From Bacteroidales bacterium (GTDB lineage: Bacteria > Bacteroidota > Bacteroidia > Bacteroidales > F082), in NCBI GenBank assembly GCA_027022105.1, contig JALVZH010000247.1, positions 1 to 54,585 on the forward strand: a stretch of 54,585 bases of DNA, read 5' to 3'. Below, piece by piece: positions 23,507 through 41,871 of this stretch; the stretch's first letter is position 1; the number at the start of each line of letters is the position of its first letter. The notes below the pieces were generated by a model, which saw nothing but the letters and a program-made list of their open reading frames with translations, was not told the origin of the DNA and ran no database searches. Position numbers and translations under genes: made by a program.

Positions 23507-24781
23507 ATGAAGAAAAAGCTGATACAATATATCATCGTTTTTACGTCTGTTTCGCTCATAGGCATTCTTATTACACAACTGTTTTGGGTAAAAGAATCCA
23601 TTAATTTGAAAAGCGAGCAGTTCGACAACAGTGTTCGCATTGCCGTAAAAAGCATATTGAACCAGTTGCAGGAGCAAAAGTCGGATACCCTGTTCGCCGA
23701 ACGGGTAAAAAAACTCTCTTGCCGGAAACCCCATCTTGAAATTACCGATTATATAGACCCGCATCTGCTTGACAGTTTAATGTTTGAAGAGTTGGGTTGT
23801 ATGAAGTTGAGGAATTACTACTACGGAGTATTCAGCAACAACACGGGAAAGTTCGTAATGGGACGTTATAAACCGTATGAACAAAACATCCGCAATTCCG
23901 CTTTTCGCTTTTCGTTGAAAAACATCTACAATGCAGGCGACTATTCCATAGGGATTTATTTTCCTGACAAAACCGGAATTATTTTAAAACAGATGAAGTT
24001 ATGGCTCTTTTTTTCGCTTTTCTTTTTGCTGAGTATCACGGCCGGATTTTTATATGTAACCCTCACTCTTTTAAAGCAGAAGAAGATTTCGGAAATGAAA
24101 AACGACTTTGTAAACAACATGACCCATGAGCTGAAAACACCTGTGGCCACAACTTCGCTGGCAGCCGAAATGCTTTTGAAACCCGAAATTTTAAAAGATA
24201 AAAAGCGTGTTAAAAAATACGCCGAAGTTATTCTGTCGGAGAACCAACGCCTGGAAAACCTTGTGGAACGTGTGTTACAGGTATCGATGCTGGAACGTGG
24301 GAAAAACAAATACAAGTTTAAAAAAGCCGACGTTCACAAACTGCTCGAAGCGGTAATCGAAAGTCTGGAGTTGAAAATGGAAAAGAACAACATCAGGTTC
24401 GAATATCACCCGGAAGCTACCGTTTCGGTGGTACATCTCGACAAGATGCACATGATGAACGTCTTTTTCAACCTGATTGACAATGCCATAAAATACACTA
24501 CCGACGACCCGCATATAGTTGTTTCCACATCCAACAATAAATGGGGCATTACCGTTACCGTGGAAGACAACGGTATAGGTATCAATCATGCACATTTATC
24601 GCACATCTTCGATAATTTCTACCGTGTTCCCAAAGGAGATGTGCACGAGGTTCGGGGATTCGGGCTGGGGCTCTATTATGCCTATCAGGTAGTAAAAAAA
24701 CACGGGGGTACCATAACAGTAAAAAGTTTTCCGGGAAAAGGTTCCCGGTTTGATGTTTATTTACCTTTTAAAATTAAGTAA
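23507..24781 (+). CDS. Sensor histidine kinase
   Basis: NNMTHELKTPVATTSLAAEML H-box; NLIDNAIKYT N-box; GFGLGLYYAYQVVKKHGG. Confidence 0.95.
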   Translation: MKKKLIQYIIVFTSVSLIGILITQLFWVKESINLKSEQFDNSVRIAVKSILNQLQEQKSDTLFAERVKKLSCRKPHLEITDYIDPHLLDSLMFEELGCMKLRNYYYGVFSNNTGKFVMGRYKPYEQNIRNSAFRFSLKNIYNAGDYSIGIYFPDKTGIILKQMKLWLFFSLFFLLSITAGFLYVTLTLLKQKKISEMKNDFVNNMTHELKTPVATTSLAAEMLLKPEILKDKKRVKKYAEVILSENQRLENLVERVLQVSMLERGKNKYKFKKADVHKLLEAVIESLELKMEKNNIRFEYHPEATVSVVHLDKMHMMNVFFNLIDNAIKYTTDDPHIVVSTSNNKWGITVTVEDNGIGINHAHLSHIFDNFYRVPKGDVHEVRGFGLGLYYAYQVVKKHGGTITVKSFPGKGSRFDVYLPFKIK

Positions 24782-24784
24782 AAC

Positions 24785-25504
24785 ATGACTACAGAACAAA
24801 AAACAATCAATATTTTATTTGCCGAAGACGATTCCAATTTAAGTATGATTCTTAAAGATTTTCTGGAAATGCTTCACTACAAGGTTGACCACGCAGCTAA
24901 TGGTGAAGAGTGTATCCGGTTGTTTCACAACAATAAATACGACCTTATCTTACTGGATGTAATGATGCCGAAAAAAGACGGTTTTACGGTGGCAAAGGAG
25001 ATCAGAAAACAAAACCCGCAGATACCCATTATCTTTCTTACAGCCAAAAACCGGAAAGAAGACAGGATAAAAGGGTTTAAAGAGGGGTGTGACGATTACA
25101 TTACAAAACCTTTCAGCACCGATGAACTCAACCTGCGCATTCAGGCAATATTGCGCCGTTGTATGTTTGGAAACAATACGGGACAACCCGAAACACACCT
25201 TTATTCACTGGGAAAATTCACATTTGACGCAAAAAACATGCTGCTGATTTCAGAAGAAGGAAAACGTACGCTTACGCGCAAAGAGAGCGCACTGCTTGAA
25301 CTGCTATGTAAAAACAAAAACAATCTTTTGCCCCGCGAAGTGGCTTTGGAGGTGGTGTGGGGTAAAAACGACTATTTTATCGGGCGAAGCATGGATGTTT
25401 TTATTACCAAATTACGGAAATACCTGAAACCCGACCCCGCACTCAGCATTACCAATGTTCACGGAATCGGTTTCAAACTGGAGATAAAAGAGGAGGATGA
25501 ATAA
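24785..25504 (+). CDS. OmpR-family response regulator
   Basis: LFAEDDSN...LILLDVMMPKKDGFTVAKEI...FLTAK; C-terminal winged helix. Confidence 0.95.
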   Translation: MTTEQKTINILFAEDDSNLSMILKDFLEMLHYKVDHAANGEECIRLFHNNKYDLILLDVMMPKKDGFTVAKEIRKQNPQIPIIFLTAKNRKEDRIKGFKEGCDDYITKPFSTDELNLRIQAILRRCMFGNNTGQPETHLYSLGKFTFDAKNMLLISEEGKRTLTRKESALLELLCKNKNNLLPREVALEVVWGKNDYFIGRSMDVFITKLRKYLKPDPALSITNVHGIGFKLEIKEEDE

Positions 25505-34643: not shown

Positions 34644-35987
34644 TTAATCCGTATCGGTATAAAGAATTTTCAGACGAATTCCGCTTAAAGTGTCTCCTGA
34701 AGGACGGGGGCCGTTGAAAACAAAACGGTTGGGATTAACCGAGCCACCCATTGTAAAAAGATAAAACCCTTTGTTAACCGTTGTTGAATCGAGCAAAAGC
34801 GATTGAATGTATCTGGTTATACGAAACTCATATTTATTACCGGATGAATTATATCTCCCGCCAAAATATTCTTCACCTTCTATTTGGTCGGGCAGCAGGT
34901 CGTAAACCCCGTCTTCAAGGCGTTGCACCAGAGCCATTTTTTTTGGAGCATCAAAGAAATTGTCTTCGGGAGCACCCGGAAGTTCAAGTATCGCTTCATT
35001 AATTCCTATAGTGCCGAGATTTTTAAAATCCCGGATAAAAGGAATGGTAATCACTGTTTTGGCGCCACTCAATCCCTGAACATACACCCGTTCGTCACCC
35101 AGAGTTGTGTCGCCTTCCAGTACCTGCTGTTTAAATTCCGGTGCCGCATAAAAGTAGTTGTGTTCAAAACGGTTTATCCGGGCACAGGTTACGGTTATCG
35201 GATATTGATATTTTAATGAATCCTTATCGTCGTTTCTGTAATAAACGGTTAGGTTTGAAAAATGAGAGGGTAGGTCAAAATAGAGTATGACTCCGTCGCT
35301 GTTTACCGGTTCTGTAATCAAATAAAGTCCTTTAAAATATTGTTGGAAACTCTCTATATCTTTCATTGCATCTTCGGGTGCATTCAACAATTTATTTCCC
35401 AACGCATCCGACCGGTTGCTAAGATTGATTCTTAAAATACCTTTGATGGTATCGGGGAAAACAGGAATGCTGTCGCTGGGTCGTGGAGAAAATTCCAGGT
35501 CGCTGTAGTCTGTTGACCCGGTTGAAAGCAAAATGTTGGAATAATACACGCTGTCTAAATAGATGTCTTCCAACAACTCATAGGTATGAACTTTGAGGGT
35601 TGTCAGCGTGTCGCCGTATGTTCCGGCATAATACAACTGTAAAACCAAAGAGTCGAGCACGGGGTTTGTTCCGAAATCGTGAGTGGTTGAAGACAGTTGA
35701 AACTGAGTGTAAAATCCGGCAGAAGTCTTTCCAAATACGGGATCGGATAAACTGCCGAGCAATGATTTTGATGACTCATCGCTTCTGACGGAATCGATGG
35801 TTTGCGTGTATGCATAAACCGTAGCCGTGTCGCTGTAAAATACCTTTAACCGGCTGTTCTCGGGCAGAATATTTGCCCCCAGCTGTTCGGGACTTTTATA
35901 ACAGGATGTAAGTGCCGATGCCAGCAATCCTGCAATTAGTATTTGAAAAAAACAGGCCGGTTTAATCGCCTTCAATAATTTTGTCAT
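34644..35987 (-). CDS. DUF4270-family lipoprotein
   Basis: ALTSCYKSPEQLGANILPENSRLKVFYSDTATVYAYT; start chosen at the internal Met before the signal peptide. Confidence 0.82.
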   Translation of the reverse strand: MTKLLKAIKPACFFQILIAGLLASALTSCYKSPEQLGANILPENSRLKVFYSDTATVYAYTQTIDSVRSDESSKSLLGSLSDPVFGKTSAGFYTQFQLSSTTHDFGTNPVLDSLVLQLYYAGTYGDTLTTLKVHTYELLEDIYLDSVYYSNILLSTGSTDYSDLEFSPRPSDSIPVFPDTIKGILRINLSNRSDALGNKLLNAPEDAMKDIESFQQYFKGLYLITEPVNSDGVILYFDLPSHFSNLTVYYRNDDKDSLKYQYPITVTCARINRFEHNYFYAAPEFKQQVLEGDTTLGDERVYVQGLSGAKTVITIPFIRDFKNLGTIGINEAILELPGAPEDNFFDAPKKMALVQRLEDGVYDLLPDQIEGEEYFGGRYNSSGNKYEFRITRYIQSLLLDSTTVNKGFYLFTMGGSVNPNRFVFNGPRPSGDTLSGIRLKILYTDTD

Positions 35988-36774
35988 AGAATTCATTAAA
36001 TGCGTCAAAATACTCTTCTTCTCCCTGATAATCAAGCAATGGTTTTCCCGATGTTTTCACCATATCCAAAATCTTGCCGTCTATTTTTTCAGACCCCATA
36101 ATAAAAGCATCCGAGAAATCAATAGCGCCTTGCATTAATGAAACGTAGTCGGCATCTTTATAGTATTTAAGATCGTCATCTTTAATGCCGCTCATTTTAA
36201 TTTTTTCCGGAAAGTCTTTTTTGAATTTTTCCGTAAAAGCCTCATCGTAAAGAGAAACTATGATCTTTGAATCGGAAAAAAGCGGATTGTCTTTGTAAGC
36301 GGTTTTCATAAACAAAGGCACCAGACTTGTAAACCACCCGTGAATGTGTACGATATCGGGCGCCCAGCCAAGTTTTTTTACGGTCTCCAAAACGCCTTTG
36401 GCAAAGAAAACAGCCCGCTCGTCGTTATCGTCAAAAAATTTACCATCCGCATCGTGAAAAAGAAACTTTCTTTGGAAGTAATCTTCGTTTTCGATAAAAT
36501 AAACCTGCATCCTCGCCTGTTGGATTGAGGCAACCTTTATAATCAACGGATAATCGATTTCGTCGATAATCAGGTTCATACCCGAAAGTCTGATTACTTC
36601 GTGAAGCTGATTTCTGCGCTCGTTTACCAAGCCGTATCTCGGCATGAAAACGCGTATCTCTTTTCCTCTTTCCTGAATTTTTTGCGGTAAATAACGTCCG
36701 ATTTTACTAATTGGCGACTCGGGCAAATAGGGCATTATTTCTTGCGCTACATAAAGTACCCTTTTCTTTTCCAT
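35962..36774 (-). CDS. Glycogen/starch synthase-like GT5 N-terminal domain protein
   Basis: RVLYVAQEIMPYLPESPISKIGRYLPQKIQERGKEIRVFMPRYG...DIVHIHGWFTSLVPLF. Confidence 0.85.
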   Translation of the reverse strand: MEKKRVLYVAQEIMPYLPESPISKIGRYLPQKIQERGKEIRVFMPRYGLVNERRNQLHEVIRLSGMNLIIDEIDYPLIIKVASIQQARMQVYFIENEDYFQRKFLFHDADGKFFDDNDERAVFFAKGVLETVKKLGWAPDIVHIHGWFTSLVPLFMKTAYKDNPLFSDSKIIVSLYDEAFTEKFKKDFPEKIKMSGIKDDDLKYYKDADYVSLMQGAIDFSDAFIMGSEKIDGKILDMVKTSGKPLLDYQGEEEYFDAFNEFYDKIIEGD

Positions 36775-37532: not shown

Positions 37533-38234
37533 TTATTCCTCTATCGGGACCACAAGTTTAAATCCTACCCCGTGAACATTCAACAGCTCAACATCAGGGT
37601 CCTGTTTCAGGTATTTCCTCAACTTGGTGATGTACACATCCATGGAACGGGCATTGAAATAGCTGTCGTCGAACCAGATTTTATTGAGGGCTACAGAACG
37701 GTCCAGTGTTTCGTTCATGTTATCGCAAAGCATTTTTAATAACTCGGCTTCTTTAGACGTAAGTTTGTCCTGTTTGTTTCCTATTGATAACAGTTGGCGG
37801 TCGTAATCAAATGTGAATTTACCGAATTTGTAAATATGGTTTTGCGGTTTGTGATCATCCTCCTGAGTTCTCCGTAAAATCGCTTTTATTCTCATGTTCA
37901 ACTCTTCCATGCTGAACGGTTTGGTCAGGTAATCGTCGGCACCCAGCTCAAAGCCGTGTATTTTGTCTTCTTGCATCGATTTTGCGGTAAGAAACAGGAA
38001 CGGAACCTTTTTATCCAGTTTCCTAATCTCTTTGGCCAAGGTAAAACCGTCCATTACGGGCATCATAATATCAAGGATGCAAAATTCAAAATTTCCCTTT
38101 TTAAACTCTTCAAGTGCAACTTTTCCGTTTGGGCACAATACGGTTTCATATCCTTTGGCATTCAGGTAGTTCTTTAGAATATTTCCGAGGTTTTTGTCGT
38201 CCTCGGCCAATAACATTTTTATTTTTTTATCCAT
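37533..38234 (-). CDS. OmpR-family response regulator (RprY-like)
   Basis: KMLLAEDDKNLGNILKNYLNAKGYE...CILDIMMPVMDGFTLAKEI; C-terminal ARSMDVYITKLRKYLKQDP. Confidence 0.94.
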   Translation of the reverse strand: MDKKIKMLLAEDDKNLGNILKNYLNAKGYETVLCPNGKVALEEFKKGNFEFCILDIMMPVMDGFTLAKEIRKLDKKVPFLFLTAKSMQEDKIHGFELGADDYLTKPFSMEELNMRIKAILRRTQEDDHKPQNHIYKFGKFTFDYDRQLLSIGNKQDKLTSKEAELLKMLCDNMNETLDRSVALNKIWFDDSYFNARSMDVYITKLRKYLKQDPDVELLNVHGVGFKLVVPIEE

Positions 38235-39666
38235 GGCGTTTGTTTTTAGTTGGCAAATAAACATAAAATACGGAGCCTTTTCCCGGTTCCGATTCAAGAC
38301 TTATTTTACCATTGTGCATTTCGGTAACCGCTTTTGCATAGCTCAAACCCAGTCCGAAGCCTTTAAAATCATGGCGGTTTCCTGTGTGCACACGGTATAA
38401 TTTGTCAAATATCTTTTTCTGGTTGCTTTTGCTTATTCCTATTCCATTGTCTTTTACGGCAATAAGCAGCCCGTTTTTCAGATCTTTGGTCGAAACCTTT
38501 ATCTCCGGGGCATTCAGCGTATATTTCAGAGCATTATCTATCAGGTTGTTAATTACATTGGTCAAATGAATTTCATCACCTTCTATAATATGTTTTGTTG
38601 CTGTCAGTTCGGTCTCAATTTTTCCGCCGGCGCTTTCTGCATTTATCTGTTTGTTGTTTACCACATTTTCAATAATCTCATGCATATCTACCAAAGAGAT
38701 GTTCAGTTTCAGGCGTCCGCTTTCGGTACTTGCCGAACGAAGAATGTGCTCGGCCATGGTGCCCAGCCGTTTGTTTTCCTCGTCAATTATTGAGATATAA
38801 CTGTTGTAAATTTCGTCCGACTTTTTCACATCTTTATCCCGTAGTGCTTCACATGCCAGCGAAATGGTGGAAATGGGTGTTTTAAATTCGTGGGTCATGT
38901 TATTAATAAGGTCGTTTTTCATTTCCGAAAGTTTTTTCTGCCGGAAAATAGTGATGATACTGAAAGAAAAAGAACCTATAATAATCAGAAACAACAAAAA
39001 CGAAACAAACAACAGATGATATAGCCTGCTGATAATGTAGGCTTTCTCGTTTGGAAAATAGATCAGCAACTTCTTCGGAAACTCAAACGGTGATGACATG
39101 GATTCAAGGTTAAAAACGAAACTGTTTTTAAGTAATTCGTTGGGATATTTTCCGGTTTTTTGGATGATCATGGCGTTGGTTTTCGGGTCGTAAATACCGA
39201 ATTCATATTTTGTATTAATCTTTTCCGCTTTTAAATTTACCTTTATCAACGAATCGATTACAGGCTTATGTTTTGTAAAAAACAGATTATCCGAAGGTTG
39301 GGTGTACATGTTCCACAATTGTTGTATGGCGTTGTTCACTTTGCTCTGTTCGGTAATTAAAGAAGAGAGCCGGTCGGAATCGGTGATGCCGAACATGCTT
39401 TGCATCAATTTGCGGTTAATGGAGTCGTAGGCTTCAAAACTGCTCAGGTATTCCTGATAATACCGCTTTTTGCTCAATACTTCATCCTGATACTTTAATT
39501 TATCAATGGCAAATATCACACGGCTCATGGCTTTGTTTACATCATGAACAAAACCTGCCTGTTTTACCTGAACGGCACTTTTGATCCACACTACCTGTAT
39601 CAGCATCAGGCCGATGCTCGACAGGGTAACCAATACAATTGTTATTATGGTTAACTTCTTTTTCAC
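38227..39666 (-). CDS. Sensor histidine kinase (RprX-like)
   Basis: NNMTHEFKTPISTISLACEAL; NLIDNALKYT; FGLGLSYAKAVTEMHNG. Confidence 0.94.
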   Translation of the reverse strand: MKKKLTIITIVLVTLSSIGLMLIQVVWIKSAVQVKQAGFVHDVNKAMSRVIFAIDKLKYQDEVLSKKRYYQEYLSSFEAYDSINRKLMQSMFGITDSDRLSSLITEQSKVNNAIQQLWNMYTQPSDNLFFTKHKPVIDSLIKVNLKAEKINTKYEFGIYDPKTNAMIIQKTGKYPNELLKNSFVFNLESMSSPFEFPKKLLIYFPNEKAYIISRLYHLLFVSFLLFLIIIGSFSFSIITIFRQKKLSEMKNDLINNMTHEFKTPISTISLACEALRDKDVKKSDEIYNSYISIIDEENKRLGTMAEHILRSASTESGRLKLNISLVDMHEIIENVVNNKQINAESAGGKIETELTATKHIIEGDEIHLTNVINNLIDNALKYTLNAPEIKVSTKDLKNGLLIAVKDNGIGISKSNQKKIFDKLYRVHTGNRHDFKGFGLGLSYAKAVTEMHNGKISLESEPGKGSVFYVYLPTKNKRHG

Positions 39667-39740
39667 GCAACAAAATTAAACCAATATCTGACTGATAAAC
39701 AGATTTTTAACGTTTGTTAACAAGAAAAAATTAATTTTTT

Positions 39741-39773
39741 TTGTCGAATTGATATTTTTTTGATGTATATTTG
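39741..39773 (+). promoter_or_regulatory. Bacteroidota-type promoter (TTG - 22 bp - TATATTTG) upstream of dnaG
   Basis: TTG at 39741-39743, TATATTTG at 39766-39773. Confidence 0.75.
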
Positions 39774-39778
39774 CACCA

Positions 39779-39880
39779 TAAACAAAAGCAAGGGTAATTT
39801 TATTATTTTCTGCTTTGTTTAAGGGTTTTCATAATTGTTGGTTTTTGGGAGGCGGCCGTCCTGGCCGCCTTTCTTTTTTT
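39779..39880 (+). ncRNA. Candidate structured leader or small RNA upstream of dnaG, ending in an intrinsic-terminator-like hairpin
   Basis: Hairpin taaacaaaagca...tgctttgttta, then AGGCGGCC gtcct GGCCGCCT TTCTTTTTTT at 39850-39880. Confidence 0.6.
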
Positions 39881-39909
39881 GTATTTTCGCCAATAAAATT
39901 AGTTGTAAA

Positions 39910-41871
39910 TTGATAAAACCGGAAACGATACAGACCATTCTTGATACTGCCCGTATAGAAGAGGTGGTAGGTGATTTTGTCCCTTTGAAGAAAAGGGGAG
40001 TAAACTATATCGGGTTGTGCCCTTTTCATAATGAGAAGACACCCTCTTTTGTTGTATCTCCTTCAAAAGGTATCTTCAAATGTTTTGGTTGCGGCAAATC
40101 GGGTACCGCTGTGGGATTTATTATGGAGCATGAGCATTATTCGTATCCCGAGGCACTGAAATATCTGGCAAAGAAGTACGGAATTGAGGTGGAAGAGGAA
40201 ACCATGACCGATGAAATGCGGGAGGAAATTGACGAAAGAGATCGCATGTTTGCCCTTAACCAGTTTGTTTCCGAACATTTTCAGCACAATCTTTTTGAAA
40301 CCGAAGACGGCAAAGCCATTGGGCTTTCGTATCTGAAAGAGCGTGATTTTATTGATGCAACCATCAGAAAGTTTCAACTGGGATATGCCGCCAATGCCTG
40401 GGAAGAGTATTCGCAATATGCATTACGAAACGGCTACAAAAAAGAAGACCTCATCAAAACCGGTTTAAGCATTGAAAGGGACGGCAAACTGATTGACCGT
40501 TTTAAGGGCAGGGTGATTTTTCCCATTCATAACCTTACGGGAAAGATTATCGGATTTGGCGGGCGTATTCTTACCGACGATAAAAAAACCGCAAAATATC
40601 TGAACTCACCCGAATCGGAAATTTACAACAAAAGCAAAAGCCTTTACGGTATTTTCTTTGCAAGAAATGCCATTTCCAAAGCCGACTCTTGTTACCTTGT
40701 GGAGGGATATACCGATGTAATCTCTTTGCATCAGGCCGGAATAGAGAATGTGGTGGCCTCTTCGGGAACATCTCTTACGGTTGACCAGATAAAATTAATT
40801 AAAAGATATACCAAAAACATTGTAATACTTTACGATGGCGACCCGGCGGGAATCAAAGCCTCTTTTCGCGGTATCGACCTTATTCTGGAACAGGGGATGA
40901 ACGTTAAAATTGCTCTCTTCCCCGAAGGCGAAGACCCCGATTCTTTTGTCAGGCACCACCGGCGTTCGGAGGTTGATCTGTTTCTCGAAGAGAATACCGC
41001 CGATTTCATAACTTTTAAAACAAAGCTGCTTTTAAAGGAAACAAAAGATGATCCCGTAAAGAAAGCGGAACTGATAAAAGAGATTGTGGAAAGTATTTCC
41101 AAAATCCCAAGCGGTATTACACGCAATGTTTACATTCAGGAGTGCAGTGCGGTGATGAATATCGCCGAACAGACCCTGATGAACGAAATGAACAAAATCA
41201 TCAGGCAGCGTTACCGCAAACAGCAAAACAGGCAGGATTATACACCGGATGAAGAGATGCCGCAGGCCGGACGTACCGATATGCAGGAGATAGAGGTGGA
41301 TCCTTATGATTCGTCAACCCAGGAACGGGAGGTTTTGCGCATGATTTTGCAGTATGGCGAAAATGTGATAGAAGTTCCCGATTATTCGGTGGCCGAAGAG
41401 GGTGTAACCTCTGTGCTTACCATGACTGTGGCAGAGTTTATCATTACCGAAATTGAAGGGGAGATGGGAGAGATGAACCACCCTGTTTATCAGCAGGTTT
41501 ATAATCTGATAAAAGAGAAATTCGAACGCAACGAACCTGTTTCGGAAAAGAGCCTTTTAAAGGATAATCCGGATAAAAAAATACAGGAGGCCATCATCGA
41601 TCTGGTATCTTCGCCTTACGACTTGAGCGAAAACTGGAAAAAACACAATATTTATGTTAAAAACGAAGAGGACGAACTTGCCAAAGCGGTAATTTACACG
41701 GTGCTTTCCTTAAAATCGAAAAAAATAGGGAAACAAATGAAATCCATAATGGATAAATTAAAGGAATCGGGTGATATTGCCGAATCGGAACTGCTGATGA
41801 TGGAATATGAACATTTGAAAGATATGTCAATGGTAATACAAAAGGCGTTGAACAGAGTTTTTGTTTTTTAA
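39910..41871 (+). CDS. dnaG: DNA primase (probable TTG start)
   Basis: IKPETIQTILDTARIEEVVGDFVPLKKRGVNYIGLCPFHNEKTPSF...CFGCG; TOPRIM VEGYTDVISLHQAG. Confidence 0.96.
   Translation: MIKPETIQTILDTARIEEVVGDFVPLKKRGVNYIGLCPFHNEKTPSFVVSPSKGIFKCFGCGKSGTAVGFIMEHEHYSYPEALKYLAKKYGIEVEEETMTDEMREEIDERDRMFALNQFVSEHFQHNLFETEDGKAIGLSYLKERDFIDATIRKFQLGYAANAWEEYSQYALRNGYKKEDLIKTGLSIERDGKLIDRFKGRVIFPIHNLTGKIIGFGGRILTDDKKTAKYLNSPESEIYNKSKSLYGIFFARNAISKADSCYLVEGYTDVISLHQAGIENVVASSGTSLTVDQIKLIKRYTKNIVILYDGDPAGIKASFRGIDLILEQGMNVKIALFPEGEDPDSFVRHHRRSEVDLFLEENTADFITFKTKLLLKETKDDPVKKAELIKEIVESISKIPSGITRNVYIQECSAVMNIAEQTLMNEMNKIIRQRYRKQQNRQDYTPDEEMPQAGRTDMQEIEVDPYDSSTQEREVLRMILQYGENVIEVPDYSVAEEGVTSVLTMTVAEFIITEIEGEMGEMNHPVYQQVYNLIKEKFERNEPVSEKSLLKDNPDKKIQEAIIDLVSSPYDLSENWKKHNIYVKNEEDELAKAVIYTVLSLKSKKIGKQMKSIMDKLKESGDIAESELLMMEYEHLKDMSMVIQKALNRVFVF

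Follow-up and report, generated by a model that had tools for sequence, protein, structure and literature searches.

What is encoded between dnaG and the sensor kinase gene that precedes it on the opposite strand? We addressed this question in a contig of 54,585 nucleotides from a Bacteroidales bacterium of the GTDB family F082 (JALVZH010000247.1, analyzed at full length and hereafter called the window). An earlier note on this DNA had described a promoter, a hairpin and an intrinsic terminator ahead of the primase start, and had proposed that either primase expression is attenuated or an abundant ~100-nt RNA is made here. A check of the sequence located the promoter, the 5' hairpin, the GC-rich stem and the T-run where the note had placed them. 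The promoter (39740-39773, plus strand) consists of a -33 TTTG (39740-39743), a 22-nt spacer and the -7 element TATATTTG (39766-39773). It is followed on the same strand by a 5' hairpin with one bulge (39779-39821), by the unpaired and nearly invariant linker TTTCATAATTGTTGGTTTTTGG (39827-39848), which we propose as the pairing region, and by an intrinsic terminator with a GC-rich stem and a T-rich tail (39847-39880). The terminator stem AGGCGGCC-gtcct-GGCCGCCT occupies 39850-39870 and can extend to 39847-39873, and the tail ends at 39880. Sequence, fold, conservation and covariation together predict a small RNA of ~101 nt (39780-39880, plus strand), with its 5' end deduced from the promoter and its 3' end set at the end of the T-run.

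For the 107-nt RNA we obtained a folding energy of -32.3 kcal/mol, whereas its dinucleotide shuffles gave -21.0 ± 3.1 (z = -3.63, with 1 of 200 shuffles as good), and the predicted fold comprises two separate stems flanking a 22-nt unpaired linker. The site at 39847-39880 was the top terminator-like site within 8.5 kb (12 pairs, 8 of them G-C), and the total of such sites in the same 8.5 kb was not raised (9 versus 8.4 in shuffles). That the element is no accident follows from its conservation in relatives. With two mismatches allowed, we found the linker in 101 of the 119 family genomes sampled, nearly always as a single copy, and a reversed-linker control pattern was nearly empty in the same scan. 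The dnaG upstream regions of relatives showed the same layout, in which the letters of hairpin and terminator vary freely and TTTCATAATTGTTGGTTTTTGG between them is constant. The linker has two main forms: the window's clade (clade A) carries ATAATTGTTGG, and a sister clade carries ATAAATTTTGG. The nearly invariant stretch written TTTCATAATTGTTGGTTTTTGG above reads TTTCATAAATTTTGGTTTTTGG in the sister clade. The RNAs predicted in relatives measure ~92-135 nt, and in nearly all members the sequence has a TAnnTTTG -7 element where the promoter of such an RNA gene would place it.

We then evaluated whether the stems are conserved as structures, using an alignment of 19 gut and rumen members of the sister clade (clade B) in which we scored the terminator stem and the 5' stem together with its inner stem. 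Standard pairs filled 98.8% of the pair cells, and 19 of 32 pairs had changed on both sides; none of 500 shuffles scored as high on any pairing measure, and sliding the partners by 1-3 columns lowered the pairing to 39-47%. The terminator stem by itself had both-sided changes at 9 of its 12 pairs with 99.6% of cells paired, and among nine close members of the window's clade the terminator had four double-changed pairs. The linker columns were invariant across the clade-B alignment, and the 5' hairpin is conserved in its structure and variable in its sequence. The pattern of changes thus argues that an intrinsic terminator is conserved as a structure in this RNA family, and the comparative evidence, from conservation and covariation, strongly supports the earlier suggestion that a ~100-nt RNA is made here.

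The RNA is also found outside the family. Scanning named genomes for the linker followed after 12-40 nt by a T-run returned 97 stretches. Almost every one came from Bacteroidales or from Bacteroidota MAGs, and several were labeled Lentimicrobiaceae. A model built from the linker-terminator alignment, R1, was in the end sequence-only because the terminator stems differ in length, and weak R1 matches were therefore judged by their gene neighborhood. A protein-blind R1 search of 393 genomes of the order recovered RNA members in other Bacteroidales families too. Two same-genus relatives possess a second RNA gene with an identical linker (L239, ~1280, minus strand; L240, ~1443, plus strand). These siblings have their own promoter and another hairpin, terminator and neighbors, and they are distant from two-component genes. 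In the window's own genome, a linker-like TTTTTCATAAAGTTTTGTTTTTG and a terminator directly follow the end of a phosphoglycerate kinase-like gene (L196, C220:21442-21499, 19.6 bits); this match may be due to chance or may be a 3'-UTR-derived relative.

The divergent neighbors of the RNA proved to be conserved with it. A kinase and/or response regulator gene lies divergently upstream in 84 of the 101 loci, as in the window (37533-39666). The earlier note had correctly assigned the kinase to the opposite strand (38227-39666, minus), but this RprX-like sensor histidine kinase is a conserved partner and not the mere bystander for which it had been taken. The adjoining gene (37533-38231, minus) encodes an OmpR-family response regulator. 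Its best NCBIfam match was NF051850 (RprY) at 334.4 bits, followed by a family at 183; since this score misses the curated cutoff of 370 yet leads other families by ~150 bits, we call the protein RprY-like and not RprY. R1, which relies on the RNA sequence alone, found 14 loci in other families with the kinase at the identical divergent position. Conversely, when full-length kinase orthologues served as the starting point, a promoter-hairpin-terminator unit was recognizable by eye in about 11 of 16 upstream regions. The RNA was absent from the canonical gut-type RprX loci that we checked. Comparison thus supports conservation of promoter, hairpin, linker and terminator as one unit linked to two-component genes.

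Most exceptions among the 101 loci lie at contig ends, are near misses located at gene starts, or belong to one gut subclade (L083, L129, L131, L135, L138, and L150). Members of this subclade have kept the RNA, with T-rich terminator loops, and have lost the two-component neighbors, which fits the expectation for a trans-acting RNA. In rumen and gut members, what remains is the RprY-like gene alone or a truncated kinase, and the regulators that adjoin the RNA in this clade are also RprY-like. Loci with a lone RprY-like gene recall Porphyromonas gingivalis, in which RprY is an orphan (PMC3646045). Elsewhere in the window, a second kinase/regulator pair related to RprXY is found at 23765-25501 (plus strand), and a 270-amino-acid protein encoded at 35962-36774 (minus strand) matches only the N-terminal half of glycogen/starch synthase.

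How the RNA might be controlled is suggested by two TTAAC direct repeats at 10-bp spacing (39707-39721, plus strand), located between the RNA promoter and the kinase. All 27 upstream regions from clade A had a pair of TTAAY spaced by 10 bp, as did 42% of those of clade B, versus ~1% in shuffles, and the other spacings from 6 to 15 bp were not enriched. In the rumen/gut clade the repeats are weak or missing. Direct repeats at 10 bp are the layout of OmpR-family binding sites, and the TTAAC repeats accordingly suggest control by the response regulator. In such a scheme, the OmpR-family regulator would bind the repeats in the shared intergenic region and control the RNA and/or its own operon. Three kinase loci from other families (L331, L338, and L342) have kept the 10-bp TTAAC repeats next to no recognizable sRNA, and the repeats may therefore serve the kinase operon, the RNA gene, or both.

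Taken together, the stretch upstream of dnaG very probably represents a gene for a ~100-nt regulatory RNA kept beside a two-component system in many Bacteroidales. With good confidence, we regard as the best overall explanation a stand-alone sRNA gene of ~100 nt that has its own terminator, diverges from an RprX/RprY-like operon and is separate from dnaG, with control by the response regulator and pairing in trans as its conjectural parts.

The near-invariant, unpaired 22-base linker suggests that the RNA controls other genes by base pairing. Its complement, CCAAAAACCAACAATTATGAAA, resembles a start region, in that CAT and TTT of the linker face ATG and AAA. The A-run of the complement coincides with the A-richest part of Bacteroidales start regions (-14 to -11), and an enrichment at -11 to -15 has been reported for those of Bacteroides thetaiotaomicron (PMC7366714). 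Given this complementarity between the linker and the start-codon regions of Bacteroidales, we propose that the RNA is a trans-acting sRNA that blocks translation starts. The exposed UUUCAUAAUUGUUGGUUUUUGG would pair with mRNAs whose start regions look like its complement, CCAAAAACCAA-nnn-UUAUGAAA, a less certain step, and the mRNAs concerned would carry CCAAAAACC-like stretches at the start codon. Pairing would keep ribosomes from entering, much as the Bacteroides sRNAs GibS and FopS are reported to do at target start regions, and by analogy with these two sRNAs start-codon pairing appears to be the most likely mechanism.

Several measurements bear on this proposal, and their outcome is mixed and no more than suggestive. 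Of 22 linker-only matches inspected elsewhere, 13 lay in antisense orientation at the beginning of an open frame of 65 codons or more. Start regions matching the complement at 16 or more of 24 positions numbered 10 in clade A (2.5 expected with the upstream part shuffled, p = 0.012) and 21 in clade B (6.4 expected, p = 0.004). Exact or near-exact linker complements amounted to ~0.8 extra sites per genome across the family, and a target search with these complements in the family found no gene in common beyond close relatives and no single conserved target. Among the 603 genes of one relative, true-start duplex energies were only near the top when compared with shuffled linkers, and internal AUGs gave better energies than true starts. 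Pairing with the divergent kinase and regulator mRNAs was weak (mean z of -1.1 and -0.2, respectively); the value for the dnaG mRNA was somewhat better (mean z of -1.3) and probably stems from the fixed protein sequence.

A bolder version of start-codon pairing would make the linker an "anti-start," that is, a near-invariant complement of the start codon, an AAA second codon and an A-rich stretch, through which one RprXY-like-controlled RNA lowers many envelope or secreted proteins. The sibling copies in L239 and L240, with the same linker under their own promoters and terminators, can be set beside this idea, which we consider possible but hold only tentatively. If it were true, an anti-start RNA would act in a phylum without classical Shine-Dalgarno starts. 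The strongest rival is that the U/G-rich linker binds protein and titrates an RRM-type RNA-binding protein, with no mRNA pairing. Most sRNA seeds are shorter than the 22 nt over which the linker hardly varies, the RRM protein RbpB binds Bacteroides sRNAs within single-stranded regions (PMC11697453), and target prediction over the 603 genes did not favor true starts over internal AUGs. On the other hand, protein binding leaves aside the register of the linker's UUUCAU with AUGAAA starts and the 13 antisense matches at gene starts, and we judge it rather unlikely.

Start-region pairing has precedents in the same order. FopS and GibS of B. thetaiotaomicron are reported to act at the translation initiation regions of their targets. 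Like the RNA described here, they are encoded between genes in Bacteroidales, end in an intrinsic terminator and have a single-stranded seed that is conserved (PMC11697453, PMC7366714). However, their seed is the unstructured 5' end, whereas the linker sits between the 5' hairpin and the terminator. We rejected membership in a FopS/GibS family, defined by a single-stranded 5' seed followed by a terminator, as the 5' end here is a covarying hairpin. In addition, FopS belongs to a family of 14 copies, whereas the present RNA mostly occurs once per genome beside RprXY-like genes. These distinctions rest on the published descriptions of FopS and GibS. MasB (BTnc201) of B. thetaiotaomicron is an sRNA of similar size (~100 nt) that represses its target by pairing near the target's 5' end; it is narrowly conserved and is assigned to the Cur regulon, and the paper describing it does not mention RprX or RprY (PMC10994844).

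An OmpR-family, envelope-type two-component regulator is linked to trans-acting sRNAs in Escherichia coli, namely OmrA/OmrB and MicF. Those sRNAs are likened to the present one by description; they come from another phylum, Hfq dependence is not expected here, and it is in our case that the RNA gene adjoins the two-component genes. A literature search, with most subscription journals outside its scope, returned no sRNA linked to RprXY. Rfam 15 at the gathering threshold matched nothing in the window and only two tRNAs in 18 related loci; matches at a lax threshold were at chance level, driven by the terminator, and were discarded. We thus predict that the RNA founds a new sRNA family. Few trans-acting sRNAs have been characterized in Bacteroidota, and none is tied to a two-component system in the literature searched. 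As the RNA is deeply conserved, its neighbor probably controls it and its 22-nt stretch is strongly constrained, both its control and its choice of targets are directly testable.

The position of the RNA immediately ahead of dnaG (39910-41871, plus strand; TTG start at 39910; TIGR01391, 466 bits) raised the possibility that it is a leader or attenuator of the primase gene, with polymerase starting at 39780 and the terminator setting the amount of dnaG mRNA. dnaG is indeed directly downstream in the window and in 23 other loci, but these make up only 24 of the 101 nonredundant loci; otherwise, dnaG is mostly farther off or outside the fetched stretch, and the element persists. The gene also has a -7 element of its own, TATTTTCG (39882-39889, plus strand), on the 3' side of the RNA terminator. 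A TAnnTT(T/A/C)G motif precedes the dnaG start by 24-29 nt in all 30 genomes examined, whether or not they have the RNA, versus 5% in shuffles. Since all dnaG upstream regions examined carry this element, dnaG is very probably read from its own promoter 3' of the RNA terminator. Furthermore, the two hairpins do not overlap in a way that would form an antiterminator. The attenuation of primase put forward in the earlier note is therefore very unlikely, and we dropped the element as a dnaG leader because it is not always 5' of dnaG and because, judged by sequence, dnaG does not depend on the promoter of the RNA. The RNA terminator most likely insulates dnaG, and the locus shows that a terminator can sit just 5' of a gene without acting on it. 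The dnaG -7 elements (window 39882-39889 and L003-L031) are mostly TAnnTTAG(C) or TAnnTTCG(C), seldom the usual TAnnTTTG, and their fixed distance from the start would give mRNA leaders of roughly 10-15 nt.

Could the locus instead be a short gene for a small protein? In some rumen and gut members an ATG begins a frame that stays open across part of the RNA, but the window copy has no such ATG-started frame and the stems vary by paired substitutions. Moreover, alignment gaps of 1-2 nt in close relatives would break any reading frame, so that coding is highly improbable. Finally, that the element is the 6S RNA of this genome has a negligible chance of being right: it is ~100 nt long, intergenic and structured, but its two stems and 22-nt open linker differ from one long stem with a central bubble, and 6S covariance models gave no match at the locus, either at the gathering score or among matches up to E = 10. 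The 6S-Flavo RNA (RF01685) is of a similar size range and occurs in the same phylum, with a different fold, and its match in this genome sits elsewhere (L032, C51:12712-12851, minus strand). L032 scores 42.8 bits, less than the gathering score of 85, and is the probable 6S RNA of this genome.
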